This document shows, in pieces, positions 3,127 to 27,671 of a DNA stretch of 32,757 nucleotides (the stretch's first letter is position 1; the number at the start of each line of letters is the position of its first letter). The notes under the pieces are model-generated. The model was not told the origin of the DNA. It did no database searches and was given only the letters and a program-made list of their open reading frames with translations. Where the stretch lies: positions 1 through 32,757 of the forward strand of contig CAIQDA010000403.1 of the NCBI GenBank assembly GCA_903870415.1, read 5' to 3'. Both the position numbers and the translations under genes were made by a program. Source of the DNA: an uncultured delta proteobacterium. Lineage in GTDB: Bacteria > Myxococcota_A > Polyangia > Polyangiales > Polyangiaceae.

Positions 3127-3189
3127 CCCGCACGAAGAGCAAGGGCTAGGGCCAACTCCGTCGGTCGTTGGCTCGTTCAGCAGCGCCCG

Positions 3190-3370
3190 CCATGTGGAGC
3201 CGCGAGATTTTTCCCTCGCAGGGAAGCCGGTGAGAATCCGGCACGGCCCCCGCCACGGTAACCGAGGACGAACTTGGGCAAGCCACGAGGCACGTGCAGT
3301 CTACACAGACTTGCGGCGGCTTCGGAAGGGCCCAGGGGAGGATGATCCGGAAGTCCGGAGACCGGGCTCT
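3190..3370 (+). promoter_or_regulatory. Cobalamin (B12) riboswitch
   Basis: The conserved core is visible in order. GGGAAGCCGGTGAGAATCC begins at 3221, the CGGCCCCCGCCACGGTAA region ends at 3261, a GCAAGCCACGAGGC arm follows, and the B12 box (AAGTCCGGAGACCGGGCT, 3351-3368) closes the aptamer. These match the cobalamin riboswitch consensus. The outer limits are approximate because I could not fold the RNA. Downstream, a perfect six-pair hairpin (CCGCGC/GCGCGG, 3429-3446) sits nine bases before the AGGA ribosome site (3455-3458) of the lipoprotein gene at 3463. There is no U-tract, so control at translation initiation is more likely than termination. Confidence 0.93.
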
Positions 3371-3462
3371 ACACGCAGAAGCAACGCCCGCAGGATCCTT
3401 GGGAAAGGCCTGTTCGTTGCCCCCCATACCGCGCGGGTCGGCGCGGCATGCACCAGGACAAC

Positions 3463-4998
3463 ATGAATTCGAATATTCGAGCAACGGGCCCACTGTTGGC
3501 CCTCATCGCGTTGGCTTCGGCCATCGGCACACAAGCCTGCAGCGATTCCATTGATTCCGCGCGCCCGAACGTCGATGGCGGCGCAGACATGACCGATGCG
3601 CAATCCGTGCAAGATGCATCGATCAGCGCAGACAGCTCTTCGGTGGACGCTGGCACGATTGTTTGGGGCGATGCAGCCGCCCCCGATTCCGCGGCAGCAA
3701 CGGACGCCACCGTCGGCGATGGCGGAGCACAAGATGCCTCGCCCAACGACGGCGGACCGCTTGACGGCGCGACGAGGGACACGGGCTCCCCGAGCGACGG
3801 AGCCCTTGCGGACGCGGCGGCTACCACGTTCGGCAACGCCATTTGGGCGGGCACGGACTTCGGTTCCGCGGGGACCGAAATCACGGTGGTCGGCGTATCG
3901 CGCACAGGAAACGCTGCGACGCTTGCTGGCCGCCTTTCCATCGCGTCGAGCGACGTGGTGCTCTCCTCGTCGAACGGGCGCGCCTTTGCACTCGTGCGCG
4001 ACAAGGGCATCGTGAAGGTGCTCGGCGTGTCTCGCCCATGGATGGTCGCCCGCGACGTCGTCCTCACGCCCGACGCCGGCGCATACGCGGACAATCCCTA
4101 CGACGTGGCCTTCGTCCCGAGCGCGAACACGGCCTACGTTGCGCGCTACGCGGACAACGGCCTCGCGGTTTTCAACCCCGCCACAGGCGTCGTCGGAACC
4201 AGCGTCGACCTGTCGCCTGAAATGGCGGCGAGCGACCCCGACGGTCTCGTCGACGTGGCCCAACTTCTCGCGGACACGCCGAGTGGCAAGGTATTCGCCC
4301 TGCTTCAGCGCATCGATCAATTCGACTACAGCGGCGCGTGCCTCGCGGCGAAGCCTCTCATCGTCGCGGTCGATCCCGCTTCGGGGCAGCTCACCGGCGT
4401 CGTCACCGGGACGCAGTCGCACATCGAACTGCAGGGCGCGAACCCGCAGCAAATGGTCTTGAGCCCGCAGACGAGAAAACTCTACGTCGTGAGCGTGGGC
4501 TGCACCGCCGGCGACGCCTCGACCACCTTCTCGCGCCGCGGCATCGAAGAGGTCGACCTCGCCACGGGCAACGTGCGCTGGCTGGTTCAAGAAGACGGCA
4601 GCGAACGCCTCGGAGCGCTCTTGTCGTGGAACGGCCATGAGGGTTACGCACGCCAGGGAAATATGTGGTTTCCATGGAGCGCGACCAATTCAACGCTCGG
4701 CTCACCATCGTCAGCGTTCGCGGCAATCGCCCCGATGATGGTCGCGCCCGGGAGCCTCGTGAACCTGGCCACACCGAGTACGGGTGACGGCGGCACGACG
4801 TGGTCCGTCGAGTTCACGGCACCTTCCGTCGTGCGCACGGCCGTCTTCGGCTCGCCTTGGCTCAACGTGAACCCGGACCCAACCTACGGCGTCGGCGGCG
4901 TGTTCGTCTCTGACCTCAGCAATCCGCCCGTCGCATCCGTTCGTGCCCCGGCCTTCTCGCCCGCAGCCCTTCGTCGTCACGCCCCAAGCGCTCGCTGA
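3463..4998 (+). CDS. B12-regulated beta-propeller lipoprotein, candidate surface cobalamin-binding protein
   Basis: The ATG at 3463 has AGGA four bases upstream and is preferred to the ATG at 3448; the product is 511 residues. A hydrophobic signal ends at Cys26 (sequence GTQAC, an imperfect lipobox). A linker of about 85 residues rich in Asp, Gly, Ala and Ser follows. From about residue 120 the protein has repeated strands of the YncE/propeller type: NPYDVAFVPSANTAYVARY, LAVFNPATG, IVAVDPASGQL, MVLSPQTRKLYVVSVG, IEEVDLATGNVRW. The gene sits alone between a cobalamin riboswitch and a terminator eight bases after its stop, so B12 controls this one product. Bacteroides BtuG is also a propeller lipoprotein that binds B12 at the surface; the analogy is inferred from fold and regulation. 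No TonB receptor lies next to it here. Confidence 0.85.
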   Translation: MNSNIRATGPLLALIALASAIGTQACSDSIDSARPNVDGGADMTDAQSVQDASISADSSSVDAGTIVWGDAAAPDSAAATDATVGDGGAQDASPNDGGPLDGATRDTGSPSDGALADAAATTFGNAIWAGTDFGSAGTEITVVGVSRTGNAATLAGRLSIASSDVVLSSSNGRAFALVRDKGIVKVLGVSRPWMVARDVVLTPDAGAYADNPYDVAFVPSANTAYVARYADNGLAVFNPATGVVGTSVDLSPEMAASDPDGLVDVAQLLADTPSGKVFALLQRIDQFDYSGACLAAKPLIVAVDPASGQLTGVVTGTQSHIELQGANPQQMVLSPQTRKLYVVSVGCTAGDASTTFSRRGIEEVDLATGNVRWLVQEDGSERLGALLSWNGHEGYARQGNMWFPWSATNSTLGSPSSAFAAIAPMMVAPGSLVNLATPSTGDGGTTWSVEFTAPSVVRTAVFGSPWLNVNPDPTYGVGGVFVSDLSNPPVASVRAPAFSPAALRRHAPSAR

Positions 4999-6398: not shown

Positions 6399-7532
6399 CT
6401 ACTGCGCCTTGTAGATGAAGAGTGCGCGGCTCGACATTGTGAGCTTTGGCGAGGAGAAACCCGCGTCTTTGATGGCGTCTTCGAGCGCGTCCTCGACGTC
6501 GTCGGCACTCTTGCGCGAGCGAACCGTGCCCGCCATTTTGTTCGCGGTCTTCACGGTCATCTTCACGTCGCCCACGGCCTCGAGCGACTTCTTGAGCGCC
6601 TTCTGCCGGTCGCGCTGAGAAAAGTCGCCCGTGATGGAGAAGAGAAACCGGCGGCCCTTTGCGGCGTCTTCGTGCCAGTAGCCCGAGACGTCTTCGAAGA
6701 GCTTCGGCATCGCATCGGACACCGCCTCCGTAAGCGCGCTCATTTCCGCTGAACCCGCAGGATATTGGCGACTTTGACCCGTGGCGCTCGCGAGCAAACG
6801 GCCCGTCGTGGCCTCGTACGCCTTCACGCTCGCCGACGCTTGAACCGTGGCCGTGATGCCCGCGGTAAACGTCACGTAGATGTCCGCGCCTACGACGCTG
6901 GCAACTTCGGCGATCGGATCAGAAACGACTCCGTCGATGGCCTCGACCGCCTTCGTGAGGTCGCCCACATTCTTGATCGCGTTCGCATCGACCATGTCGA
7001 ACTTGCGCTGCGTGAGGAAGCTCGCGATGCGGTCGCTGAGAAACTGCTTGCCCGCGTCGATCTTCTTGGCCGGGTCGTAGCCTTCGGGAACCACGAGAAT
7101 TTGCGGCGCTCCGATACTCTCGGCGAGGGCGGCGGACTTCTGAATGGTTCCGTCTTGTTCGAGCTTCCGTCGAAGCTCCTTCACGTTGACGTCGATGAGA
7201 ACGTCGATGACGGGGCTCTCGCCTCGGAAGATGGTCTTAAGGACTCGGCCAGCCCGCGCGAAGTCCGTGTATTGCACAATCTTCGCTCGACGCTGCTCAA
7301 TGGTGCCCTTCTCGTCGTCGCTTCCGGTCAGCGACTTGGCGGCGAAAAAGAGCGCCTCGCCCATGGCTGCGTTCTTCGCGGCGGTCATGTTCAGCCCCTC
7401 GGCGTCGCTTACGCGAAATCGCTGGAAATCCGTGTCGACCGTTTCGACGAACTGGGCGACCGGGAATGCCGCCGCGAGGGTCGGCTGGAGCGCGAGGGCA
7501 AGAACGAGAACAAACGATGGACGAATCTTCAT
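6399..7532 (-). CDS. Exported protein with FlgT/CsgG-like features, third gene of an envelope operon
   Basis: The ATG at 7532 gives 377 residues with a clean signal peptide (KIRPSF, hydrophobic core, LAAAFP cleavage zone). The next part has the pattern AEGLNMTAAKNAAMGEAL, typical of the N-terminal domain shared by FlgT and LPP20-like proteins. A middle region (APQILVVPEGYDP ... VVGADIYVTFTAGI ... VKAYEATTGRLLASATG) resembles the alpha/beta fold of CsgG/TolB-N/FlgT middle domains. A small charged C-terminal domain ends the protein. Function in the outer membrane or periplasm is inferred. It starts 38 bp after the LPP20-like gene and is followed by an intrinsic terminator, so it is the last cistron. 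No flagellar gene is nearby, so a flagellar role is not supported. Confidence 0.8.
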   Translation of the reverse strand: MKIRPSFVLVLALALQPTLAAAFPVAQFVETVDTDFQRFRVSDAEGLNMTAAKNAAMGEALFFAAKSLTGSDDEKGTIEQRRAKIVQYTDFARAGRVLKTIFRGESPVIDVLIDVNVKELRRKLEQDGTIQKSAALAESIGAPQILVVPEGYDPAKKIDAGKQFLSDRIASFLTQRKFDMVDANAIKNVGDLTKAVEAIDGVVSDPIAEVASVVGADIYVTFTAGITATVQASASVKAYEATTGRLLASATGQSRQYPAGSAEMSALTEAVSDAMPKLFEDVSGYWHEDAAKGRRFLFSITGDFSQRDRQKALKKSLEAVGDVKMTVKTANKMAGTVRSRKSADDVEDALEDAIKDAGFSSPKLTMSSRALFIYKAQ

Positions 7533-7570
7533 GGAGAACTCTCTCTCGGAAACGTGACAGCGACGAAAGA

Positions 7571-9145
7571 TTACCAACCGCGCATGGCGTCAACGACGCG
7601 CTGGACAGCCTGCGCTTGGGCCGCCTCGGCACCGGGCGCGAAGCCTGCACTACGCACGGACTTTTCAAAGAGACGACCGCGCGGACCAACCACGGTGACG
7701 TTCAGTTCGACGGGCTGCGAAACGCGGGCGCCCACGGTCTGTGACGAGCCAAACGTGACGGTCGCGACGACCTTGAGTCCGCCGCTTTCCTGGACATTGA
7801 GCCCCAAACGGCGGGTGGCAAACGAGTCAACGGCGGCATGAAGAGCGTCGCGCGGACCTGTGAGGTTCGCGGGCATGACGAGCTTCAGCGTTGCGACCGG
7901 ACTTGCCGTTGCGGGTATTTCAAAGGTTGCACGCTGACTTGGCTTCGTATCACCAAGAATAGATGCTGTACGTGTTCCCGCAAGGTCATGGGCGAGCGTG
8001 ACCTTCACCTCGGACTGACCGTACGCGGGCCCAACCGAAAACGAGACCGCGCCATCGCGGTTTGTGGCAAGCGAGCCGGGCAAGTCCACGAGACCCGCGC
8101 TCGGTGTTGCAACGAATCGCGCGCCTCTCCAGGGTTTTCCCGCGCAAGAAACCTGAAGCGAGACGGTTTTTCCGTCCGCGCCAACACCTCCGTCAACGTC
8201 CGCGCAGCTCGCGAGCCGGCGTCCGAGACGTAGCAGTTTTTCGTATTCCGCCTTCCAGCCGTTGCGCACCTTGCGACCGACCCCGGAGCGCCCCACGGTG
8301 TTCGCTTGCTCGAGCGCATCGCCGAGTGCGTAAAGAACTTCCGGGCTCAGTTTGTCGACGGCGAACGCTTGCGACACGCCTTCTGCGGCCTCGGCGAGGG
8401 CCCTGAGCACGGCGTCGACGACCACTTGCTCGCGCTTGGCGATCTCGTCTTGGTCGAGCGATGCGAGCACGTAAACCGAGCCATTTTTCCCGTCGCGGTA
8501 CTGATCGACGATGGCAACACCGTCGAGCGACGCCTGCACGAGGAGCTGCGTCGTGGCCGAGAAGGCCTGGGAATCCATCGAGGCTCGCTTCGTGCGCCCC
8601 GAGCTGTCGGTGCTTTCGACAGACTCGTTCGTCTGCTTGTCGACGGTGGTGGCGTCGATGTGCACCTGAAGCTGAGCGGCAATCTCAAAGACCGCGCGCT
8701 GCAGCGCCAAGTTGCGTTCTTGGCCGGGGCCCGCATCGCCCTTCTTGACCATTCCAACGCCGTAAAGAAGCGCGCCTTCGGACCGCTTTCCATCGAGCCA
8801 ATCGGGGCGTATTGCAGGCGGCGGCGGCATCGGACTGTCAGGAAAAGCTGGGGGAACGAAGACTCCATCGCCGGAAGGCTTGGCGCCTTTCTTGGGCGGC
8901 GTTGGGCGCGGCGTCGGTGCCGGTTTCGAGCGTGCCGCGCAGGCCGCCACCTCGGACGCGGAGACCTTTTCTCCGAGCGCTTGCGAGAGCTCGACCTCCG
9001 CGCAGTTCGCGCGAGCAGCCGTGTCGGAGGTTCCGCCGCTCTCCTCTTGCGACGAAGCAAGCGAGGCGACAGTGAGGAGCGAGACGAGGGAGCGTGTGGC
9101 GAAGCGCATCGGTTCTTTCGACGACAGACTTAGACGTTCATTCAT
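7571..9145 (-). CDS. LPP20-like exported protein with Pro-rich linker
   Basis: The product is 524 residues from the ATG at 9145, which has AGGG about eight bases upstream. A second ATG at 9109 would give a shorter, more classical signal peptide and cannot be excluded. After the signal there is a Cys-containing segment (48, 69) and a Pro/Lys linker (75-112). Residues about 112-240 look like the LPP20/FlgO-P fold: RPDWLDGKR, LLYGVGMVKKG, LALQRAVFEIAAQLQ, then a strand-rich half ending YVLASLDQDEIAKRE. The remaining 280 residues hold a helical part, a beta-sandwich-like part and a C-terminal domain with VELNVTVVGPRGRLFEKSV. It is the second gene of the three-gene minus-strand operon. Envelope location is likely; function is unknown. 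Confidence 0.8.
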   Translation of the reverse strand: MNERLSLSSKEPMRFATRSLVSLLTVASLASSQEESGGTSDTAARANCAEVELSQALGEKVSASEVAACAARSKPAPTPRPTPPKKGAKPSGDGVFVPPAFPDSPMPPPPAIRPDWLDGKRSEGALLYGVGMVKKGDAGPGQERNLALQRAVFEIAAQLQVHIDATTVDKQTNESVESTDSSGRTKRASMDSQAFSATTQLLVQASLDGVAIVDQYRDGKNGSVYVLASLDQDEIAKREQVVVDAVLRALAEAAEGVSQAFAVDKLSPEVLYALGDALEQANTVGRSGVGRKVRNGWKAEYEKLLRLGRRLASCADVDGGVGADGKTVSLQVSCAGKPWRGARFVATPSAGLVDLPGSLATNRDGAVSFSVGPAYGQSEVKVTLAHDLAGTRTASILGDTKPSQRATFEIPATASPVATLKLVMPANLTGPRDALHAAVDSFATRRLGLNVQESGGLKVVATVTFGSSQTVGARVSQPVELNVTVVGPRGRLFEKSVRSAGFAPGAEAAQAQAVQRVVDAMRGW

Positions 9146-10857: not shown

Positions 10858-13800
10858 GTGAGCACCCATTGGTTCCGAATGACGATGCTGCTGTCGGCTC
10901 TCGCCCTCGTGATCGTCGTGCTGTTCGCGCCACATCACGCCAACGCGGCCGAAATCGTTGTGTCGCAAGACTTCGCCGACGCGCCTGGAGGCCCGAACGC
11001 GAGCCTCTTTCTCGATGAATCCGGCGATGCGTCCTTTGCGGACATCGAGGCGTTGCCGGGCAACCGCTGGACGCCAAGCACCTCGTCGACGCCGAACTTT
11101 GGTTACCGTCGCGGAGCGTTGTGGGTTCGCTTGCAGGTGCGCGATGCGCGCGTCGTGCCGGCGCCGCTCGTGGTGGACTTTGCGTACCCGCCCGTGGACG
11201 AGGTCACGCTCCAGGAACGAAGGGCTGACGGGACCCTCGAACGGTTCGCCGTCGGTGACCACGTCCGCCATTCCGCGTGGCCTCGTCGCACGCTTCTACC
11301 AAGCTTTTTGCTGGCCCCAAGCGCGTCGCACGACCTTCTCTTCCGTGTGAAAGACGCGTCGCTCCAAGCGCCGATCATCGTTCGGTCCGAAGCGAACGCT
11401 CGAGACCGTGAGCGCTTCGAGGACATCATTGTCGCCGCGTACTTCGCCGCCGTCCTCGCCCTTGCACTCTACAACCTTCTTCTTTTTGTCGGCACGGGCA
11501 TTCGCATATACGGTGTCTACGTCACGTATGTAGTATCGTTCGCCCTCTTCGTCTCGACGATGAACGGCGTCGGGGCTGCGCTGCTTTGGCCGTCATCGCC
11601 GTTTTTGAGCGACCGCGCGCCGCTATTTTTCGCATCCGTTGCCGTTCTCGCGGTCGTGCAAATCGTCGTCGATTTGCTGGGTCTTACCCACCGCACCGAT
11701 CGCGCGGCCCGAATGGTCCTGCGTTCGCGCCCGCATCTTGTGGCCCTCGCGGTCGCGACGATCGTGACTCCCTTTCCTTGGGCGCTCGCACTTCTCAGCG
11801 TCCTCATCGTCGTGGCGGTTGCGGGCGCGAGCGCCGTGTCCATTGGCGATGCGCTTGCGGGCTCTCGGCCAGCGAGGCTCTTTCTCCTCGCCTTCTCGGT
11901 CCTCCTCGTGGCGATCATCGCGGTCACCCTCGCCAATGCGGGCGTCGTCGAGCTTGGTGTGGGCTCACTTCTCACGCTGCCCGCAGGGTCCGCGCTCGAA
12001 CTCATTCTTCTTGCGTTTGCCCTCGCCGATCGCATCAAGGCTCTCCAGCACGAGGCCACGCATCAGGCCGAGCTCGCACGCTCCTTTGCCGAAGAGGCCA
12101 AGCGCAGCGCCGAGCATGCCCTCGACGAACAAGCCCGCACCAACCGTGAGCTCGAACGCCTCGCCAAGCTCAAGGACGCCTTTCTCGCGAACACGTCGCA
12201 CGAGCTTCGCACCCCGCTGAACGGCATCCTCGGAATCGCCGAAATCACCCTCTCTGGCGCCGCGGGAGCCTTGCCCTCGGGCGTCTCGCGCAACCTCGGA
12301 ATCATTCGCTCAAGCGCCCGCCGCCTTGGCTCCCTCGTGAACGATATCTTGGATTTTTCCAAGATACGCGAGAAGGGCCTCGCGTTGCGCCTTGAGGCGG
12401 TTCGCCTGCATGAAGTTGTGGCCTCGGTGCTCGCGATGCTCGAGCCTCTCGCCGTTGACAAGGACCTTCGCATGGTCGCCGAAATCGACGACGCGATTTG
12501 GGTTCGAGCCGATGCGGGTAGACTGCACCAAATGCTCACGAACCTCGTGGGCAACGCGATCAAGTTCACGTTTTCAGGGAGCGTGGTCGTGCGCGCAAGC
12601 GTGCTGGAGGGCCGCGTCCAGGTCTCCATCGCCGACACGGGAGTGGGCATCGCCGAGGCCGATCGTGAGCGTATTTTCAACTCATTCGAGCAGGGCGACG
12701 GTTCCGCCGCACGCGAACAAAGTGGCACAGGCCTTGGCCTCGCCGTGACCCAAAGCCTCGCGCAGCTGCACGGAGGCTCCGTTCGCGTCGAGTCAAGGCT
12801 CGCTCACGGAAGCACGTTCACCTTCGATGTTGAGGCGTGCGCCCCTGGCGATGACGAGACTCGCATCAGCCGACTGACGCGCGACGATGCGCCGCGATCG
12901 ACCTCCGCGCACCGCACCCAAGAGTCCGTGGTCGCCCGCCTGCCCGCGCTCAACGGCGAGTCCCTCCGCGTTCTCGTCGTCGACGACGAACCCATCAACC
13001 GCGAAGTACTTGCCCAACACCTGGGAAATCGCGGCTTCGAGGTCGAACTGCTTTCCGGCGGTCAGGCCGCCATCGAGCGTCTTGCCGATGCCTCGAAACC
13101 CTCGCCGGACCTCGTGCTCCTGGACGTCATGATGCCCGGCACGAGCGGCTACGACGTGCTCGAAGCCTTGCGGCCGCTTCGTCCGCTCAAAGAGCTGCCC
13201 ATTCTGCTCCTCACCGCAAAGGCCCGCGAAGCCGACTTGGCGACGGGCTACGCGCTCGGAGCCAGCGACTACTTGCTCAAGCCTGTGAGCTTCGTCGAAC
13301 TCGACGCGCGTCTTTCGCACCACGCGAAGCTCGTGCTCGCGACCCGTGCCGAACGTGACGAACTTTCAGAGCGCCGTCGGCTGCAAGGTGAACTCGCGAC
13401 CACCGAAGCCAAACTCGCGGATTCGCAGGCACTCGCGACACTCGGAACGCTCGTCGCGGGCATCGCACACGACCTTCGAAACCCGCTTCAATTTATCATG
13501 GCCGCGGTTGAACAACTTCGCGACGCTTCGGGCGAGCTTCTGTCGGACGACCCGGAGACCCGAGCAAAAGCTCTCACCACGGTCACGCGCGTCACCGGGT
13601 GGGTCGAGACGGGCGCGGCGAAGATGGAGGCCATCAGCCGCGCCATGCTCAACCAATCGCGCACGGATCACGACCGCACATTGCTCGTGCTGTCGGAGGC
13701 CATCGAAGAAGCGTGGCTCCTCTGCCGAGGACGAGCAGCGTCCGCCGACGTGACCTTCGCGGTGAGCGACGCGTCGGTGTATGTCGACCCGGTCGGATTC

Positions 13801-14181
13801 GGGCAACTCGTCATGAACCTCGTGTCGAACGCGGCCGACGCGCTCGACACAAACGATGCGATCAACGCGCCAGACGAGCCAAACGCAAACAATGCGCCTC
13901 GCGCCAAACGCATCCACGTCGAAGCCGTCGTCGAAGAAGGCTTCCTCGCCCTGCGCGTCCATGACAGCGGCCCCGGGGTTCCGCTCGAACTTCGCGAGCG
14001 AATTCGCAAGGCATTCTTCACCACGAAGCCACGCGGCCAAGGCACGGGCCTCGGGCTTGCGATCGTTTGCCGGGTCGCCGAAACGCACGGAGGAACGGTG
14101 GTCGTGGACGAATCGCCCCTGCTTGGCGGCGCGCTCTTCCACGTGCGCTGGCCAAACAGCGTCGGCACCGCACCGATGTAA
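10858..14181 (+). CDS. 7TM hybrid sensor kinase: kinase-receiver-kinase
   Basis: The product is 1107 residues if the GTG at 10858 is used; ATG codons at 10879 and 10885 are alternatives. A signal peptide is followed by a periplasmic beta-domain (about 32-185), then about seven membrane helices (about 188-392). That is the 7TMR-DISM layout. A coiled coil (395-440) leads to the first kinase: phosphoacceptor His448 in SHELRTPLNG, N-box GNAIKFT, DTGVGI and GTGLGL. A receiver domain follows (DD at 709-710, phospho-Asp 756, Lys808). A second coiled coil (825-860) leads to a second kinase with His871 in HDLRNPLQF, N-box NLVSNAADAL, DSGPGVP and GTGLGLAI. No DNA-binding output is present. The paralogous gene 64 bp downstream has the same order of cytoplasmic domains. 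Confidence 0.93.
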   Translation: MSTHWFRMTMLLSALALVIVVLFAPHHANAAEIVVSQDFADAPGGPNASLFLDESGDASFADIEALPGNRWTPSTSSTPNFGYRRGALWVRLQVRDARVVPAPLVVDFAYPPVDEVTLQERRADGTLERFAVGDHVRHSAWPRRTLLPSFLLAPSASHDLLFRVKDASLQAPIIVRSEANARDRERFEDIIVAAYFAAVLALALYNLLLFVGTGIRIYGVYVTYVVSFALFVSTMNGVGAALLWPSSPFLSDRAPLFFASVAVLAVVQIVVDLLGLTHRTDRAARMVLRSRPHLVALAVATIVTPFPWALALLSVLIVVAVAGASAVSIGDALAGSRPARLFLLAFSVLLVAIIAVTLANAGVVELGVGSLLTLPAGSALELILLAFALADRIKALQHEATHQAELARSFAEEAKRSAEHALDEQARTNRELERLAKLKDAFLANTSHELRTPLNGILGIAEITLSGAAGALPSGVSRNLGIIRSSARRLGSLVNDILDFSKIREKGLALRLEAVRLHEVVASVLAMLEPLAVDKDLRMVAEIDDAIWVRADAGRLHQMLTNLVGNAIKFTFSGSVVVRASVLEGRVQVSIADTGVGIAEADRERIFNSFEQGDGSAAREQSGTGLGLAVTQSLAQLHGGSVRVESRLAHGSTFTFDVEACAPGDDETRISRLTRDDAPRSTSAHRTQESVVARLPALNGESLRVLVVDDEPINREVLAQHLGNRGFEVELLSGGQAAIERLADASKPSPDLVLLDVMMPGTSGYDVLEALRPLRPLKELPILLLTAKAREADLATGYALGASDYLLKPVSFVELDARLSHHAKLVLATRAERDELSERRRLQGELATTEAKLADSQALATLGTLVAGIAHDLRNPLQFIMAAVEQLRDASGELLSDDPETRAKALTTVTRVTGWVETGAAKMEAISRAMLNQSRTDHDRTLLVLSEAIEEAWLLCRGRAASADVTFAVSDASVYVDPVGFGQLVMNLVSNAADALDTNDAINAPDEPNANNAPRAKRIHVEAVVEEGFLALRVHDSGPGVPLELRERIRKAFFTTKPRGQGTGLGLAIVCRVAETHGGTVVVDESPLLGGALFHVRWPNSVGTAPM

Positions 14182-14245
14182 TCGCACGACGATCATGGGC
14201 GAAGCGTGCTCAGTCGTTTAGAGTGCAAAAGCTTGGGGGTAACGC

Positions 14246-17014
<2,769 letters not shown>

Positions 17015-21285: not shown

Positions 21286-23058
21286 CTACGCGGCGCACTC
21301 GGCTTCGCCTTCGGTGACGCTGAACGCCTCGCTCTGGCCAAGGTCGATGAAGTCACTCTCAAGGGCCGTCGTTTCGTCGATGTCGAACAGCTCCCCGATG
21401 GCCTTCTTGACGCCATCGATCGGTGTTCGTGCGAGGAAATCATCTAGCTTTTCGCCGCTGGTGCGCTCACGCTCCCACAGGCCCAAAATGCGATCGAGCG
21501 CCGCGGGAACGCGATGCGCGGGGACCTTTCCAACGAGGCGACCGAAGCGCGAACCGGCAAGCGTGCCTTGTGCGTCTGGGACCGAGCCACCGCCGACCGT
21601 GAGTTGGTAGAGGGGCAGCGCGCGACCCCCAATCTTTCGCATGCCGCCCTGAAAGCCGATGCTCGCGACGTGGTGCTGACCGCAACCGTTCGGGCAGCCG
21701 CTCACCTTGATGCTTGCGTCGTCGAAGCCTGTCGCCTCGCCGCGAGCGACGGCGTGACCCTGCAAATGCGCGTTCAATCGCTCCGCAAGGCCACGCGACG
21801 CCGTCACGGCCACGGCGCACGTATGGGCCCCCGCGCATGAGATCACATCGGCGAAGGTTCCCGCTCCGCTTTCACCGAGCGAGAGGTCATCGAGGGCCGC
21901 GTGCAACGCAGGAAGCGACGCGCCCGTGATGTGCCGCAGCACCAAGTTCTGATCGATGGTCGTGCGCACCGTGCCGTCGCTGAAGCGCTCCGCAATCGAG
22001 GCAAGCGCGCGGAGCTGCGACGGGTTCAGATCGCCAAGCCTCAACGTCACAAACGCTGCAAAAAGACCGGGTTGCTTCTGCACGACGGCGTTGGTTCGAC
22101 GCCATGCCGCGAACCCCGAACGAGGCTCGGGCGCGTCGAGATTCACGATCGCCCCGGCCACGACGGACTCTTGCGGCGCGTTCGCAGGGTCGAAGGCAAA
22201 GCGCGGCGCCCCCTCCTGCTTCACAAGCTCCCACTCGGCGAGCACGCGCTCTTTGAACGCGTCCCAGCCGATGCTCTTCACGAGCCACTTCATGCGCGCC
22301 TTTTGCTTGTTGTTGCGCTCGCCTTCGCGATGAAAGACGCGAACGATGGCATCGCTCAAACCGAGTATTTCTCCAGCCTCCACGAACTCGACGATGGGCT
22401 GCGCCGACCGAGGCAACGTGGAGGTGCCGCCCGCTGCAAGGACGCGAAAACCGCGCTTGCCGTTCTCGACGCGCGCGAAGAACGCGATGTCGTGAATGGG
22501 ACCTCGCATCGCGTCCCGCGTCGAACCTTCGAAGGCGATTTTGAATTTGCGCGGCAACGACGACGAAAGAGGGCCGCGAAGAAAGTGCCTCACGAGGCCG
22601 TCGGCAAACGGCGTCACGTCGAAGGGTTCGCTCGGGTCAACGCCCGCAAGCGGGTTCGAGGTCACGTTGCGCACGCTGTGGCCACAGGCCTCTCGCGTGG
22701 TGATTCCCGCCTCGGCGCACAAGGTCATGGCCTCCGGCGCCGTCGCGAGAGAGAGACCGTAGAACTGAAAGTTTTGGCGGGTCGTCACGTGCGCGCGACC
22801 GTTTGCGTAGGTCTCGGCGACTTGAGCGAGCGTGCGGAGTTGGTCTGCCGAAGCGCGCCCGAGAGGCAGCTTCACGCGGAGCATCTGCTGACCCACTTGG
22901 CGTTGGCCGTAGACCCCGTTGAGAAGACGAAAGCTGCGCCACTGATCGGGCGTGAGCTCGCCGCGCTCGTAGCGTTCGAGGGTTTCGACGAAGAGGTCGA
23001 CGTCACTTTGCGTGGCGAATTTCAGGTGTCCATCACCATGAGGCGTAAGGTCAGTCAT
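21286..23058 (-). CDS. cysI: Siroheme [4Fe-4S] sulfite reductase, ferredoxin-type
   Basis: It reduces sulfite to sulfide with six electrons. The 590-residue product has the duplicated nitrite/sulfite reductase fold. The N-terminal half has RVKLPLGRASADQL, HVTTRQNFQFYGL and the RNVTSNPLAG siroheme-binding stretch. The C-terminal half has the cluster cysteines as Cx5C (408, 414) and Cx3C (455, 459), with the GCPNGCGQHH motif. The family also contains ferredoxin-nitrite reductases; the cysD-cysN-cysH context makes sulfite the likely substrate. No flavoprotein subunit (CysJ) is present, so electrons probably come from ferredoxin. Its ATG overlaps the stop of cysN by four bases (ATGA), indicating translational coupling. 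Confidence 0.93.
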   Translation of the reverse strand: MTDLTPHGDGHLKFATQSDVDLFVETLERYERGELTPDQWRSFRLLNGVYGQRQVGQQMLRVKLPLGRASADQLRTLAQVAETYANGRAHVTTRQNFQFYGLSLATAPEAMTLCAEAGITTREACGHSVRNVTSNPLAGVDPSEPFDVTPFADGLVRHFLRGPLSSSLPRKFKIAFEGSTRDAMRGPIHDIAFFARVENGKRGFRVLAAGGTSTLPRSAQPIVEFVEAGEILGLSDAIVRVFHREGERNNKQKARMKWLVKSIGWDAFKERVLAEWELVKQEGAPRFAFDPANAPQESVVAGAIVNLDAPEPRSGFAAWRRTNAVVQKQPGLFAAFVTLRLGDLNPSQLRALASIAERFSDGTVRTTIDQNLVLRHITGASLPALHAALDDLSLGESGAGTFADVISCAGAHTCAVAVTASRGLAERLNAHLQGHAVARGEATGFDDASIKVSGCPNGCGQHHVASIGFQGGMRKIGGRALPLYQLTVGGGSVPDAQGTLAGSRFGRLVGKVPAHRVPAALDRILGLWERERTSGEKLDDFLARTPIDGVKKAIGELFDIDETTALESDFIDLGQSEAFSVTEGEAECAA

Positions 23059-24350
23059 GCGTCGTCTCCGGATTCGCTGCGAATGAGTCCTGCGGCCACG
23101 GTCTCGTGCGTGGCCTCGTCCACCAGAATGAAACTGCCCGTCGTGGCGCCGTCGTCGTAGGCGTCAAAAACAAGCGGCGCGCTCGTGCTGAGGCGTGCAA
23201 CCGCCAGGTCGTTGAGCTTGAGTTCCACGGCTCCCGGCCGAAGTGCGAGCGAATCGAGGTCCAAGATTCCGTCGATGGAATCGAGGCGTGCCTTGACGCT
23301 TTTCGTGTGATTCTTCAGCCAGAATCGCGCACCTGGCCGAGCGGCATGCGTGTCGAACCAGGCAAGGGTCGCCACGATTTTTCGACCCACGCGAGGCGCC
23401 GATCCCTCGTGCGTGAGAACGTCGCCGCGACTGACGTCAACATCGTCTGCAAGGCGCAGCGCCACACTCAGCGGAGCCGCAGCTTCACCAAGCTCTTCCG
23501 GATGCCGATCGATGCCGACGACCGTCGTGCTCTTGCCTGAGGGCCACGCCACAACACGGTCGCCCACCTTCACGGTCCCCTGCGCGATTTGCCCAGCATA
23601 CGCTCGGTAATCGTGATGTTCGTCGCTGCCTGGACGGATGACCCATTGCACCGGAAAACGGAATGCAAGCGACTCGGAGTTTGCCACCGGCGCGTCTTCG
23701 AGGAGCTCGAGCAGCGATGGCCCCGCGTACCAAGGCATCGCCGTCGATCGATCGACCACGTTGTCGCCCGAGAGCGCCGCGACAGGAACGATGGTGATCG
23801 CCGTCGATGGAAGCTTGTCGGAGAACGCGCGCAAGTCCGCTTCGACCTCTCGAAAACGCGCTTCGTCGTAGCCAACGAGATCCATCTTATTGACGCCGAA
23901 AACCACGTTTTTCACACCCATGAGGCGCGAGGCGAGTGCGTGCCTTCGCGTCTGTTCGGTGACCCCGTGACGCGCATCGACGATGAGCAACGCCACGTCG
24001 GCCGTGGACGCGCCGGTGATCATATTGCGTGTATACTGCACGTGTCCGGGTGTATCGGCGACGATGAAGCGACGCTTTGCCGTGCGGAAGTAGCGGTAGG
24101 CCACGTCGATGGTGATGCCCTGCTCGCGCTCGGCGCGAAGGCCATCGGTGAGCAGCGCAAGTTCGGTGCGCGAAAAGCCCCGGCGACGACTCGCCTCTTC
24201 GACGTGCTCGAGCTGATCATCGGCAATTTGCTTGGTATCGAGGAGCAGCCGCCCCACGAGCGTGGACTTGCCGTCGTCGACATTTCCCGAAACCGAGAAG
24301 CGAAGCGCCCGTCGTTCGAGGGGCGCGGAGGTCGATGCGTCGGTGCTCAT
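23055..24350 (-). CDS. cysN: Sulfate adenylyltransferase GTPase subunit CysN
   Basis: CysN hydrolyses GTP to drive adenylation of sulfate by CysD, forming APS. The 431-residue product is an EF-Tu-like GTPase. The P-loop is GNVDDGKST (22-30), followed by the switch region ERE/QGITIDVAYRYF, DTPGHVQYTRNM, the NKMD base-recognition motif, and two beta-barrel domains. It ends without an APS-kinase domain, so it is not a CysNC fusion. The start codon overlaps the cysD stop (TAATG) and its own stop overlaps the sulfite reductase start, so three genes are tightly coupled. Confidence 0.96.
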   Translation of the reverse strand: MSTDASTSAPLERRALRFSVSGNVDDGKSTLVGRLLLDTKQIADDQLEHVEEASRRRGFSRTELALLTDGLRAEREQGITIDVAYRYFRTAKRRFIVADTPGHVQYTRNMITGASTADVALLIVDARHGVTEQTRRHALASRLMGVKNVVFGVNKMDLVGYDEARFREVEADLRAFSDKLPSTAITIVPVAALSGDNVVDRSTAMPWYAGPSLLELLEDAPVANSESLAFRFPVQWVIRPGSDEHHDYRAYAGQIAQGTVKVGDRVVAWPSGKSTTVVGIDRHPEELGEAAAPLSVALRLADDVDVSRGDVLTHEGSAPRVGRKIVATLAWFDTHAARPGARFWLKNHTKSVKARLDSIDGILDLDSLALRPGAVELKLNDLAVARLSTSAPLVFDAYDDGATTGSFILVDEATHETVAAGLIRSESGDDA

Positions 24351-25366
24351 TAAAAGTATCCCTCTCGCTTGCGGTCTTCCATCGCGGCCTCGGTGGCCCG
24401 GTCGTCGGCGCGCGTCTGCCCGCGCTCGGTGATGCGCGACGTGGCGATTTCGCGAATCACGTCGTCGATGGCGAACGCGTCGGACTCGACCGCTCCGGTG
24501 CAGGTCATGTCACCGACGGTGCGGTAGCGGACCGTGCGCGTTTCGAGCGATTCGCCAGGCAGAAGCTGTGTGGAACCCGACGATGCGTAGAGCATGCCGT
24601 CGCGTCGAAACACCTCGCGCTCGTGGGCAAAGTAGATGTTCGGCAGCGCCAGGTTCTCGCGCCGGATGTAGGCCCAGACGTCGAGCTCGGTCCAGTTCGA
24701 GAGTGGGAACACGCGGAGGTGTTCGCCTCGCTGGACGAAGCCGTTGTAGAGCGCCCACGGTTCGGGTCTCTGATTCTTCGGGTCCCATTGTCCAAAGCTG
24801 TCGCGGAAACTGAAGATGCGTTCTTTGGCTCGCGCACGCTCTTCGTCGCGGCGCGCACCCCCAATTGCCGCGTCGAAACCGTTCGTTTCGATGACGTCGA
24901 GGAGCGCGACCGTTTGAAGGCGGTTGCGCGACGCACGCGGGCCGATCTCTTCGCGGGCGCGCCCTTGCTGAATCATGTCTTCGACGGAAGACACGATGAG
25001 GCGCTCGCCGAGCTCCGCGACCCGTGCGTCACGAAACGCGATGACTTCGGGGAAGTTGTGCCCGGTGTCCACGTGCACGAGCGGGAACGGAAAGCGCGCC
25101 GGACGAAACGCCTTCTCTGCGAGCCGAAGGAGGACGAGGCTGTCTTTGCCGCCGCTGAAAAGCAGCATGGGGCGCTCGCGCTCCGCCGCGACCTCGCGCA
25201 GAATGAAGATGGCCTCGGCTTCGAGGTCGTCTAGTGAGGCGACCTCTTGTGCGAGATTCGCGAAGTTTCCACAGACAATCTCACGGTCATTTCCGTTGCG
25301 CGTTTGCTGAACTTCATGCAAGGCCGAAGCGTTCGACTTCTTTCGAGACTCCGTTATCTCAGACAT
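24350..25366 (-). CDS. cysD: Sulfate adenylyltransferase catalytic subunit CysD
   Basis: CysD transfers AMP from ATP to sulfate. The 338-residue product has the PP-loop LFSGGKDSLVLL, HVDTGHNFPE, IGGARRDEERARAKER, WDPKNQRPE and VFPLSNWTELDVWAYI. It ends with the Lys/Arg-rich tail RKREGYF typical of CysD. Compared with E. coli CysD it has about 40 extra N-terminal residues without obvious conservation. The ATG at 25366 has no ribosome-binding sequence, and the likely -10 (TATAAC) ends six bases before it. Either the message is leaderless or the real start is an internal codon. It is first in the cysD-cysN-cysI run and divergent from cysH. Confidence 0.95.
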   Translation of the reverse strand: MSEITESRKKSNASALHEVQQTRNGNDREIVCGNFANLAQEVASLDDLEAEAIFILREVAAERERPMLLFSGGKDSLVLLRLAEKAFRPARFPFPLVHVDTGHNFPEVIAFRDARVAELGERLIVSSVEDMIQQGRAREEIGPRASRNRLQTVALLDVIETNGFDAAIGGARRDEERARAKERIFSFRDSFGQWDPKNQRPEPWALYNGFVQRGEHLRVFPLSNWTELDVWAYIRRENLALPNIYFAHEREVFRRDGMLYASSGSTQLLPGESLETRTVRYRTVGDMTCTGAVESDAFAIDDVIREIATSRITERGQTRADDRATEAAMEDRKREGYF

Positions 25367-25372
25367 GTTTCT

Positions 25373-25401
25373 GTTATAGTAGACCATGACGCTGTGCGCA
25401 A
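25373..25401. promoter_or_regulatory. Divergent cysD/cysH promoter with overlapping -10 elements
   Basis: On the minus strand TTGCGC (25396-25401) and TATAAC (25373-25378) are 17 bases apart and point to cysD. On the plus strand TATAGT (25375-25380) overlaps the same bases and points to cysH, with no good -35. Five of six -10 positions match consensus on each strand. The intergenic space is only 71 bp. Confidence 0.45.
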
Positions 25402-25437
25402 CGACCATGCGCACCAGGCCCCAACGAAAGTGATGTC

Positions 25438-26190
25438 ATGAGTGTTTTTCCAGCAGTTGACGAACTCAAGTCGACCGATGCGCTCTCGGCATTTCTCGAC
25501 GCCGCGCAAGCACGCTTCGGAGAAAGGCTGGCGGTGGCGTCGAGCTTGGGCGCGGAGGACGTGGTGCTCGTGCATGCGGTCGCCGAGCGAGTTCGCGCGG
25601 GCGGGTCGCCGGTGCGCATCTTCACGCTCGATACGGGACGCTTGCCCCAGGAGACCTACGAGCTTCACGAGGCACTTGAGGCTCGGTATGGCCTGCGTAT
25701 TGAAAGCGTATTTCCAGACACGGTTGCCGTACAACAGCTCGTGCGCACGCAAGGCCCGAACGGTTTCTACCACTCGCTCGACGCGCGACACGCATGCTGC
25801 GCCGTTCGCAAGCTTGAGCCGCTGCAGCGAGCGCTCGGGGGCGTAGACGCATGGATCACTGGACTTCGCCGCGCCCAAAGCATCACGCGCACCGAGGTTG
25901 CGCTGGCCGAGCAGGACGGCACACGCGTGAAGCTCAACCCCCTTGCGCACTGGAGCGACGAGGATGTTTGGGGTCACATACGCGCAAACAAGATTCCGTA
26001 TAGTTCACTCCATGACGCGGGCTATCCGTCGGTTGGATGCGCGCCGTGCACGAGAGCCGTTGACCCCGGCGCGCACGCGCGGTCGGGACGCTGGTGGTGG
26101 GAGGACCCGGAGCACAAAGAGTGCGGTCTACACGTCGCTCGGCTTCGCCGCCTTGAAGACGCACGACGCGCGGACGAGGAAATCGCCTAG
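25438..26190 (+). CDS. cysH: APS reductase (thioredoxin-dependent, Fe-S type)
   Basis: It reduces adenosine 5'-phosphosulfate to sulfite and AMP. The 250-residue product has a PP-loop-like start (AVASSLGAEDVVLVH), FTLDTGRLPQETYEL, the Cys pair 120-121 (HACCAVRK) and Cys201/204 (GCAPC), which together ligate a [4Fe-4S] cluster. The catalytic Cys229 lies in the tail motif ECGLH. PAPS reductases lack the CC and CxxC pairs, so APS is the expected substrate. This fits the absence of an APS kinase in the cluster. The ATG at 25438 follows a weak ribosome site. It converges with the membrane-protein gene at 26207. Confidence 0.95.
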   Translation: MSVFPAVDELKSTDALSAFLDAAQARFGERLAVASSLGAEDVVLVHAVAERVRAGGSPVRIFTLDTGRLPQETYELHEALEARYGLRIESVFPDTVAVQQLVRTQGPNGFYHSLDARHACCAVRKLEPLQRALGGVDAWITGLRRAQSITRTEVALAEQDGTRVKLNPLAHWSDEDVWGHIRANKIPYSSLHDAGYPSVGCAPCTRAVDPGAHARSGRWWWEDPEHKECGLHVARLRRLEDARRADEEIA

Positions 26191-26206: not shown

Positions 26207-26740
26207 TTACGCGCTGCGGGCGAAGAGGCGCGCGAAGCCAAGCGGCACAAGAATGCCGAGGCCCATCGCAGTCAGACTCGTCAACCCCGCGTGTGGACAC
26301 CCGAGGGAACCCACCGCCAGCGCGAGCGAGCCCATGCCGAGGGTGAGCACGGTCGAGGGCTCGCGACGCACCGCACGCGCCACAAGAAGCCCCGCAACCG
26401 CGCCGCCGAGAGCGCAAAGGGGCATGCACAGCGATACGCACGTGTCGCCGGTGCACACGTGTCCCACGCGGCCACCTGCAAACGAGCAGGCGAAAGGCAC
26501 GAGACCAACGAGCAGGCCGGGGTACACCGCGCGCCCCATGCCTTGCCCGCGCCAGAGGCCCACGATCGCGAGCAAAAGAGCAAAGGCCATCGCGGCGATA
26601 ACCTGCGGGCGCAACCCCGAGACGAGTCCAAGGACCGCCACGTAGAGGACCACGGGCACGAGCTCGACGAGCACACGAGCCCGGCGACCGCGACGGTAGG
26701 CCGCTTCGAGGGCGACAAGGTTCGGCGATTCAGGAGCCAT
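26207..26740 (-). CDS. Cys-containing multi-pass membrane protein, candidate anti-sigma factor (NrsF-like layout)
   Basis: The 177-residue product has a charged cytoplasmic N-terminus of about 25 residues and then about five to six hydrophobic helices. Cysteines cluster in one loop and the following helix start (VCTGDTCVSLCMPLC, about 95-109), with another Cys before it (about 84) and a GCPH motif near residue 148. The start at 26740 has GGAGG seven bases upstream and overlaps the sigma-factor stop by 11 bp, so the two are translationally coupled. A short membrane protein coupled to an ECF sigma is commonly its anti-sigma factor. The layout recalls NrsF (DUF1109), which keeps SigF inactive and uses conserved cysteines in response to metals. 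Homology is not proven from motifs alone. Confidence 0.75.
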   Translation of the reverse strand: MAPESPNLVALEAAYRRGRRARVLVELVPVVLYVAVLGLVSGLRPQVIAAMAFALLLAIVGLWRGQGMGRAVYPGLLVGLVPFACSFAGGRVGHVCTGDTCVSLCMPLCALGGAVAGLLVARAVRREPSTVLTLGMGSLALAVGSLGCPHAGLTSLTAMGLGILVPLGFARLFARSA

Positions 26741-27338
26741 GCATCAACCTCCACGCGTCACGCAGCCGCTCAATGGCGCGCTGCTTTCGCTTGCGAAATG
26801 CCGAACCGCGGCCGTCTTCACGCTCCGCAAGAACCTCGCTCAACGTCTGGCGATCGGCGTCCGAAAGCGTTCCCATGAGGTCCTCGGCGAGGCGAAGAAG
26901 CTCCGCGTTCTCAAGCATGTCCGCGGCGGTCGCATCGATGGCCGCAAGCGACTGAAACCGCTCCGTGTCGACAGGGTCCGCTTTTCGCCGCTGGTGCTGC
27001 CGTCGAAGCGTGCGCGACTCGAAGAGCACGAGCGCCACGGCCCACGGAACCACCCGTCGCGCGCGATCGTAGTCGGCGGCCTGGGAAAAGAGTTTTTGCA
27101 GCGCGTTCTGCGTTGCGTCTTCGGCGTCGGCGCCGCGGCCCAAAAGTCGCTCGGCGGCACGAAGCATTGGCGGTCGAACGGCGTCGTGCACCACGCGAAG
27201 CGCCGCGCGGTCTCCGTCGGCGAGACGCGCCATGGCTTCTTCGACCTCTGAAAATGACAACGCCACCGCCTTCGCATCGCTCGCCACGCCCGGTTCGGGG
27301 GCGCGGGAAACATCGAAGGCAGCAGCGTCGGTGGTCAT
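26730..27338 (-). CDS. ECF-type RNA polymerase sigma factor with shortened region 4
   Basis: The 202-residue product has a 40-residue N-terminal leader, then sigma region 2 (LRAAERLLGRGADAEDATQNALQKLFSQA, with the acidic DAEDATQ element, then VVPWAVALVLFESRTLRRQHQRRK). After a variable linker comes a region-4 segment (MGTLSDADRQTLSEVLAERE ... FRKRKQRAIERLRDAW). The stretch that normally carries the turn and start of the recognition helix (EIA..LG type) appears to be missing about 5-8 residues. It lies 55 bp after the Cys-rich peptide gene and overlaps the membrane-protein gene, forming a three-gene unit. Autoregulation of this unit is likely by analogy with other ECF systems. Confidence 0.85.
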   Translation of the reverse strand: MTTDAAAFDVSRAPEPGVASDAKAVALSFSEVEEAMARLADGDRAALRVVHDAVRPPMLRAAERLLGRGADAEDATQNALQKLFSQAADYDRARRVVPWAVALVLFESRTLRRQHQRRKADPVDTERFQSLAAIDATAADMLENAELLRLAEDLMGTLSDADRQTLSEVLAEREDGRGSAFRKRKQRAIERLRDAWRLMHGS

Positions 27339-27393
27339 GGTCGAATGCGGGGCGCGATAGCAGCAAACCGTGGCTTGAAGCTCGCCCCCGGAC

Positions 27394-27531
27394 TCACTTG
27401 GCGCAGTTGCAGTGTTCGCCGCAACCGCAGCTGTCGCCGCAACCGCAGGCTGCGAGCTTCGTGGCCGCGAACGACGTGACGGGAATCGCGAGGAGGGCGG
27501 CGACGAGGACGATGCGAAGCTTTGAGGACAT
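27394..27531 (-). CDS. 45-residue exported Cys-rich peptide, metallothionein-like
   Basis: This short gene has an excellent ribosome site, AAGGAG six bases before the ATG at 27531. The product begins with a clean signal peptide (SSKLRIVLVAALLAIPVTSFAA, AFA-type cleavage near residue 23). The mature peptide is about 22 residues, TKLAACGCGDSCGCGEHCNC then Ala-Lys. It contains seven cysteines spaced as CxC, CxC and CxC pairs plus one His, a thiol-rich array suited to soft-metal binding (Cu, Zn or Cd) in the periplasm. It is directly upstream of the ECF sigma factor gene (55 bp) and probably shares its transcript. It resembles in context, but not clearly in sequence, the small Cys peptides controlled by SigF/NrsF-type pairs. 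No modifying enzyme (DUF692 type) is in this window. Confidence 0.8.
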   Translation of the reverse strand: MSSKLRIVLVAALLAIPVTSFAATKLAACGCGDSCGCGEHCNCAK

Positions 27532-27671
27532 AACGAACTCCTTGGGGTTGAGCGCCCCTCCGAGGAGGGACAAAGGAGCTAGGCGCGGCGACCGAAGCCG
27601 TGACAGGGCACGCCTCGATTCTTCTTCAAAGGCTGCAAATCATCAGGCATTCACGCGACGAAGACGGTCGT

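Follow-up and report, generated by a model that had tools for sequence, protein, structure and literature searches.

A putative copper/silver-responsive ECF sigma factor circuit in Myxococcota, with a cysteine-bearing six-helix membrane protein and a short exported Cys-rich peptide

Small exported peptides rich in cysteine are easily passed over, and one that stands directly before an ECF sigma factor and a Cys-bearing membrane protein raises the question of whether the three form a single regulatory circuit and, if they do, which signal it answers. The window analysed here, a stretch of 32,757 nucleotides from a member of the Polyangiaceae, contains such a unit. All three ORFs lie on the minus strand, in the order and at the positions of the original prediction: the peptide gene (27394..27531, 45 aa) is separated by a 55-nt gap from the sigma gene (26730..27338, 202 aa), which in turn overlaps by 11 nt the gene for a six-helix membrane protein of 177 aa (26207..26740). 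The last is the presumed metal sensor and anti-sigma factor, a role suggested by its conserved columns and an AlphaFold2 model, and is called the sensor below. The translated peptide, MSSKLRIVLVAALLAIPVTSFAATKLAACGCGDSCGCGEHCNCAK, consists of a Sec-type signal (about residues 1–22/23; MSSKLRIVLVAALLAIPVTSFA) and the tail ATKLAACGCGDSCGCGEHCNCAK, which holds six cysteines arranged as CxC-x3-CxC-x3-CxC and not the seven counted earlier. The ribosome site that had been noted for the short gene is AAGGAG, a few bases 5' of its ATG. In the window the unit is flanked by sulphate-assimilation and chemotaxis genes. Elsewhere in the window we observed a cobalamin riboswitch (3181–3384, plus strand; Rfam RF00174, 85.9 bits) upstream of a 516-aa ORF (3448–4998) that has no Pfam match, adjacent DUF6175 and LPP20-lipoprotein-domain proteins with no function assigned (6399–9145, minus strand), and a tandem pair of large hybrid histidine kinases, of which the first carries a 7TMR-DISM sensor module (10858–17014, plus strand).

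Homologues of the membrane protein were detected in 42 of 145 relatives, in 71 of the 318 genomes of the class and in more families of the phylum, each time as a single complete copy or close to it. Once duplicates had been removed, 91 distinct loci from Myxococcota were available, and a sigma gene lies directly upstream of the membrane-protein gene in 89 of them. An automatic detector that looks for a short ORF in which a hydrophobic, signal-like segment is followed by a Cys-rich tail found one 5' of the sigma gene in 46 of the 89 loci that had enough upstream sequence for peptide detection. It fired in 1.8% of random windows (26 of 1438) and in none of 22 NrsF-family loci; about half of the sensor loci are without a peptide. 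The original prediction depended on gene order being shared with relatives and on the short gene being kept there, and both were found. Among copies within the window's genus, dN/dS is 0.15–0.24; the peptide is under purifying selection and the short gene is real. It has no Pfam or NCBIfam family match over the cut-off, and its tail varies widely in relatives (CGCGDSCGCGEHCNC, ECCAPGAACCKPGAACC, CCPGPCCASGCPMCP or long Lys/Cys tails; Sorangium cellulosum So0157-2 and its relatives carry CPCADCPCPDCPCG). On a quick sensor tree, in which deep branches are weak, the peptide is present in both halves and changes state about ten times, compared with a shuffled mean of 29.5, so that the peptide is probably old and was lost in several lineages.

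The assignment of the second gene to the ECF sigma factors held up. Pfam Sigma70_r2 (PF04542) is matched over the cut-off (1.5e-07) in a short, 202-aa protein, and NCBIfam TIGR02937 gives 4.7e-08, which is below that model's cut-off. Pfam gives no match for region 4, and alignments with full-length ECF models reach about residue 166. The translated sigma factor contains no cysteine.

The sensor has no Pfam or NCBIfam family match over the cut-off. Its AlphaFold2 model (pLDDT 77.7, pTM 0.56) shows six helices plus a small hairpin (residues 95–102). The candidate ligands H94, C96, C101, C105 and C109 lie in the loop that joins helices 3 and 4, and C148 and H150 in the one that joins helices 5 and 6; by the positive-inside rule both Cys loops are predicted to be periplasmic and the N-terminus, where Y15 and R19 are conserved, cytoplasmic. 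Among 88 proteins, C96 is conserved in 84, C101 in 78, C105 in 84, C109 in 82, C148 in 83 and H94 in 61; position 150 is a cysteine in 51 of the 88 and a histidine in the window's genus. The loop cluster of cysteines described earlier for the membrane protein is thus borne out by conserved residues in predicted periplasmic loops. As modelled, this anatomy is the one expected of a membrane anti-sigma factor with a periplasmic soft-metal site, and by analogy with such proteins we infer that the sensor binds both the sigma factor and metal. Searches of the PDB with the model (Foldseek and VIA-align) returned nothing above helical-bundle noise, and a search by sequence found no solved relative.

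Several loci depart from the common form. A second sensor-like domain without a sigma factor of its own is encoded behind a motif site (described below) at three loci (L148, 5591–7426; L168, 5968–6429; L173, 7128–7577), and the one in L148, where the Cys cluster is partly missing, forms an in-frame fusion with an outer-membrane efflux protein (family profile 4e-42; OEP 3e-38). A locus binned under Phycisphaerales (L156) nearly matches the Myxococcales locus L146 in its sensor region and motif sites and is probably misbinned. Another, binned under Bdellovibrionales (L153), looks AT-richer and is a possible transfer.

In order to find out how the unit might be controlled, we compared the DNA 5' of its genes. 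The unit loci share a bipartite motif, BGTCAC-N14/15-BGCCYA (B = C/G/T). In the window it is represented by a predicted autoregulatory ECF promoter on the minus strand (27580..27605), with a -35 element TGTCAC (27605–27600), a spacer of 14 and a -10 element CGCCTA (27585–27580), placed 48 nt 5' of the peptide start codon (genome match G000:C403:27580-27604, where G000 is the window's genome). For counting, we accepted BGTCAC followed after 11–16 nt by a -10 like CGCCTA, no more than 200 nt from the peptide start. A motif precedes the peptide at 43 of 46 loci, compared with 0.25 expected from shuffles, and precedes the sigma gene at 28 of 42 peptide-less loci, compared with 0.49 expected; these counts are not blind, since the pattern was derived from the same loci, and shuffles and genomes without the sensor served as controls. 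The strict motif was found in 23 of 71 genomes with a sensor but in only 11 of 247 without one (Fisher 1.9e-09), and it is almost unique per genome in genomes of 11–15 Mb. One of the 11 sensor-less genomes has its motif at a contig end that itself carries a Cys-peptide, MKIIRAIS...APCCAGHDCCPGCPFCPSHLHA (L233; G193 C189 4444-4470); its sigma and sensor genes were probably cut off by the contig end. From this co-occurrence, the sigma factor would be the one that recognises BGTCAC-N14/15-BGCCYA. In one peptide-less clade (L146, 94–519; L239; L156) the motif lies 5' of a gene that directly precedes the sigma gene and encodes an exported protein of about 140 aa containing two cysteines (MYKPKLISILTVLIGVAAASVPATSFAG...); this protein perhaps stands in for the Cys-peptide there. 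Judged from gene order, the shared motif and conserved residues, the unit is almost certainly one autoregulated, conserved circuit.

What the circuit responds to is indicated by the other genes that follow the motif. G002, a genome of the window's genus, has two further strict motif sites. One of them (G002:C102:575-601) stops 7 nt short of an operon that encodes an outer-membrane efflux protein (OEP), a CusB-like adaptor carrying a heavy-metal-binding domain (HMBD) and CusA, a CusA/CzcA-type transporter (TIGR00914, 1074 bits; cut-off 701); the other has no target of this kind. In the named 10-kb loci (321 kb in total), 26 extra motif sites were found beyond those 5' of sigma or peptide genes, where the motif density of the window's genome would predict about 1.5. 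Pfam assigns the genes directly behind the extra sites to OEP in five cases, multicopper oxidase in three and FAD oxidoreductase in one, and a cupredoxin lies behind a motif site in another genome. The 109 neighbours of peptide-less loci include OEP (12), ACR_tran (5), Cu-oxidase_3 (5), CusB-type (4) and HMBD (3) proteins. Of the 24 named peptide-less loci, 14 have extra local motif sites, but none of 11 peptide loci does (Fisher 0.0009), as if the buffering peptide and efflux replaced each other, a contrast that is confounded by descent.

In the window's own genome, none of 22 loose motif sites, except that of the locus itself, lies convincingly before a metal gene, and the peptide operon is the only clear motif target. 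A close orthologue of the G002 HMBD–CusB protein was not found there either, so that for the window's genome the copper link is by homology. Since the motif stands before CusCBA-type operons, multicopper oxidases and a cupredoxin in relatives, the regulon points to copper/silver defence, and on this genomic evidence copper or silver is quite probably the signal.

Taken together, these observations suggest the following course of events. When no metal is present, the six-helix membrane protein would hold the sigma factor at the membrane, judging from the coupling of the two genes and from how such pairs work. Binding of metal by the periplasmic residues H94, C96, C101, C105 and C109 and by C148, with H or C at position 150, would free the sigma factor, which would then act at BGTCAC-N14/15-BGCCYA and have its own operon transcribed, the Cys-peptide first. 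Since the peptide gene is the first gene of this self-transcribed operon, the levels of sigma factor, sensor and peptide would rise together. The Sec-exported peptide may buffer periplasmic copper in the manner of a minimal metallothionein. In lineages without the peptide, the motif, by its position, would drive genes for CusCBA-type efflux, multicopper oxidases and cupredoxin.

The peptide could also have a different role within the same circuit, either as a copper chaperone like CusF or as a feedback ligand which moves metal to or from the sensor cysteines and thereby closes the response. The peptide is encoded in the operon of the presumed sensor and, like it, is Cys-rich and periplasmic; the cysteines of the sensor are kept in loci with and without a peptide. 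Against such a role, the tails vary both in length and in the spacing of their cysteines (CPCADCPCPDCPCG and ECCAPGAACCKPGAACC as opposed to long Lys/Cys tails), which makes a specific docking partner hard to see, and many loci work without any peptide. We regard a chaperone or feedback ligand as a possible but unlikely function and consider buffering a fairly likely one. As a small, probably copper-binding product the peptide would resemble CusF and metallothionein-like peptides, but it differs from them in that its CxC-type tail of about 20 residues is without a folded domain and that it belongs to no Pfam or NCBIfam family.

A second alternative concerns the origin of the sensor, which could be a far-diverged DUF1109 (NrsF/CarR) anti-sigma factor, the unit then being a diverged SigF–NrsF or CarQ–CarR system. 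The SigF–NrsF–bufferin system (BufA1/DUF2282) of Caulobacter and its relatives is induced by Cu (PMC8224329) and by Cr and Cd (PMC3511200), and its likeness to the unit is plain: an ECF sigma factor, a six-helix Cys-bearing membrane anti-sigma factor (putative here) and small exported Cys-peptides (PMC3511200, PMC8224329, PMC12452194). The sensor does have DUF1109-like traits, with six helices in the model, predicted periplasmic cysteines, an ECF sigma neighbour at 89 of 91 loci and a copper context, and CarR is itself a diverged six-helix DUF1109-like anti-sigma factor that answers copper (PMC9304148, PMC8156234). The NrsF/DUF1109 relationship proposed in the original prediction nevertheless found no support in profile searches, as PF06532 matched neither the window protein nor 15 relatives (zero of 16 members), nor anything else in the whole genome. 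A profile–profile comparison with Polyangia NrsF (hhalign) gave a collinear match with E 0.012 that block-shuffled controls matched or beat. Since there is no Pfam or NCBIfam match and the comparison was no better than with shuffled columns, membership is unsupported and the sensor is not detectably NrsF/DUF1109 by sequence. In addition, the sensor has a histidine and a four-Cys cluster where NrsF has two single cysteines, the promoter TGTCAC-N14/15-CGCCTA differs from the SigF promoter GTAACC-N16-CGAA (PMC3511200), and in several genomes the NrsF family and the sensor family occupy separate loci.

The bufferin part of the comparison fared no better. Bufferin precursor groups such as Buf2 and EGKCG have been profiled (PMC12452194), and the peptide, a very short query that is hard for profile search, matched no known precursor family in Pfam or NCBIfam. 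The MNIO enzyme (PF05114) had no match in the window's genome, which is 98% complete, while the Caulobacter control was positive. Since the genome lacks an MNIO enzyme, a bufferin type is not supported.

The CarQ–CarR–CarS system of Myxococcus xanthus likewise combines an ECF sigma factor with a six-helix membrane anti-sigma factor and answers copper and singlet oxygen (PMC9304148, PMC8156234). It always includes carS, serves carotenogenesis and is limited to the Cystobacterineae, whereas the unit has no carS, is linked to a Cys-peptide or a copper-efflux regulon and is wide in Myxococcota; CarR is set apart here by description. No carQ–carR–carS operon was seen at the sensor loci, where the genes behind the sensor encode OEP, multicopper oxidase, FAD oxidoreductase and CysH. 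Descent of the unit from either DUF1109 system thus appears rather unlikely to us.

Two further copper-linked ECF systems were compared. CorE and CorE2 of M. xanthus resemble the unit as ECF sigma factors that drive multicopper oxidase and copper export genes (PMC3107203), but in CorE it is a Cys-rich extension at the C-terminus of the sigma factor itself that senses metal, and there is no anti-sigma factor, whereas the sigma factor here is paired with a membrane protein. A CorE-type sigma factor was rejected, as the one here is without any cysteine and has neither a Cys-rich C-terminal extension nor a CxC linker. SigAb–AabA/AabB of Acinetobacter is a copper-induced ECF operon with anti-sigma partners (PMC12153292); its partner proteins, gene order and regulon are others, and no Cys-rich exported peptide is reported for it.

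The nature of the signal is subject to a third alternative, in which disulphide, electrophile or general thiol stress, or Cd, Zn or Hg, would trigger the circuit and copper genes would be one output of several. A cluster of cysteines can react with a wide range of soft metals and oxidants, NrsF answers Cr and Cd (PMC3511200) as well as Cu (PMC8224329), FAD oxidoreductase genes are found behind motif sites, and in the window's genus sulphate-assimilation genes adjoin the unit, the window itself holding a complete set next to it (21286–26190; sulphite reductase, CysN, CysD and CysH). However, what can be recognised among the outputs is efflux of the Cus type, multicopper oxidases and a cupredoxin, and cysH stands beside the unit in the window's genus only, so that cysH is not part of the system; a sulphur link of the unit was rejected on the same ground. 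We consider a signal of this broader kind improbable. Of the self-contained metal- or thiol-stress circuit envisaged originally, one co-regulated metal circuit is what stands, given the gene order, the unit's own motif, the conserved sensor cysteines and the copper/silver neighbourhoods and regulon, while a thiol-stress signal is without positive support.

That the short ORF is untranslated and only the promoter and the sigma–sensor pair are real would agree with the absence so far of a detected peptide and of the ORF itself from part of the sensor family, but is scarcely credible against dN/dS of 0.15–0.24, a ribosome site, a place right behind the promoter and independent signal-plus-Cys-tail sequences at 46 of 89 loci compared with 1.8% of random windows.

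The unit is thus probably a self-amplifying ECF circuit responsive to Cu(I)/Ag(I)-type metal, of a family not yet described. In the literature searched, which was covered in part, we found no description of the sensor family, the promoter or the peptide; the circuit is apparently undescribed, although of a known general kind. Going further, we lean slightly towards a new class of membrane metal sensor and anti-sigma factor that has an ECF group and a promoter code to itself. Depending on the lineage, it would be connected either to a periplasmic Cys-peptide that is gene-encoded, unmodified and quick to vary, and so a minimal metallothionein for export, or to efflux and oxidation. Few copper responses based on an anti-sigma factor are known, and such a circuit would add to them one family each of sensors and peptides as well as a promoter code; the phylum has many ECF factors whose trigger is unknown. 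Since the motif is nearly unique per genome, its regulon can be read directly. Mature CxC-repeat peptides of about 20 residues are usually missed by annotation, and here a search by regulatory signature brings up dozens in one go. Finally, the apparent swap of peptide and efflux pump within one regulon offers a testable case of a single sensor that is connected to different metal defences.
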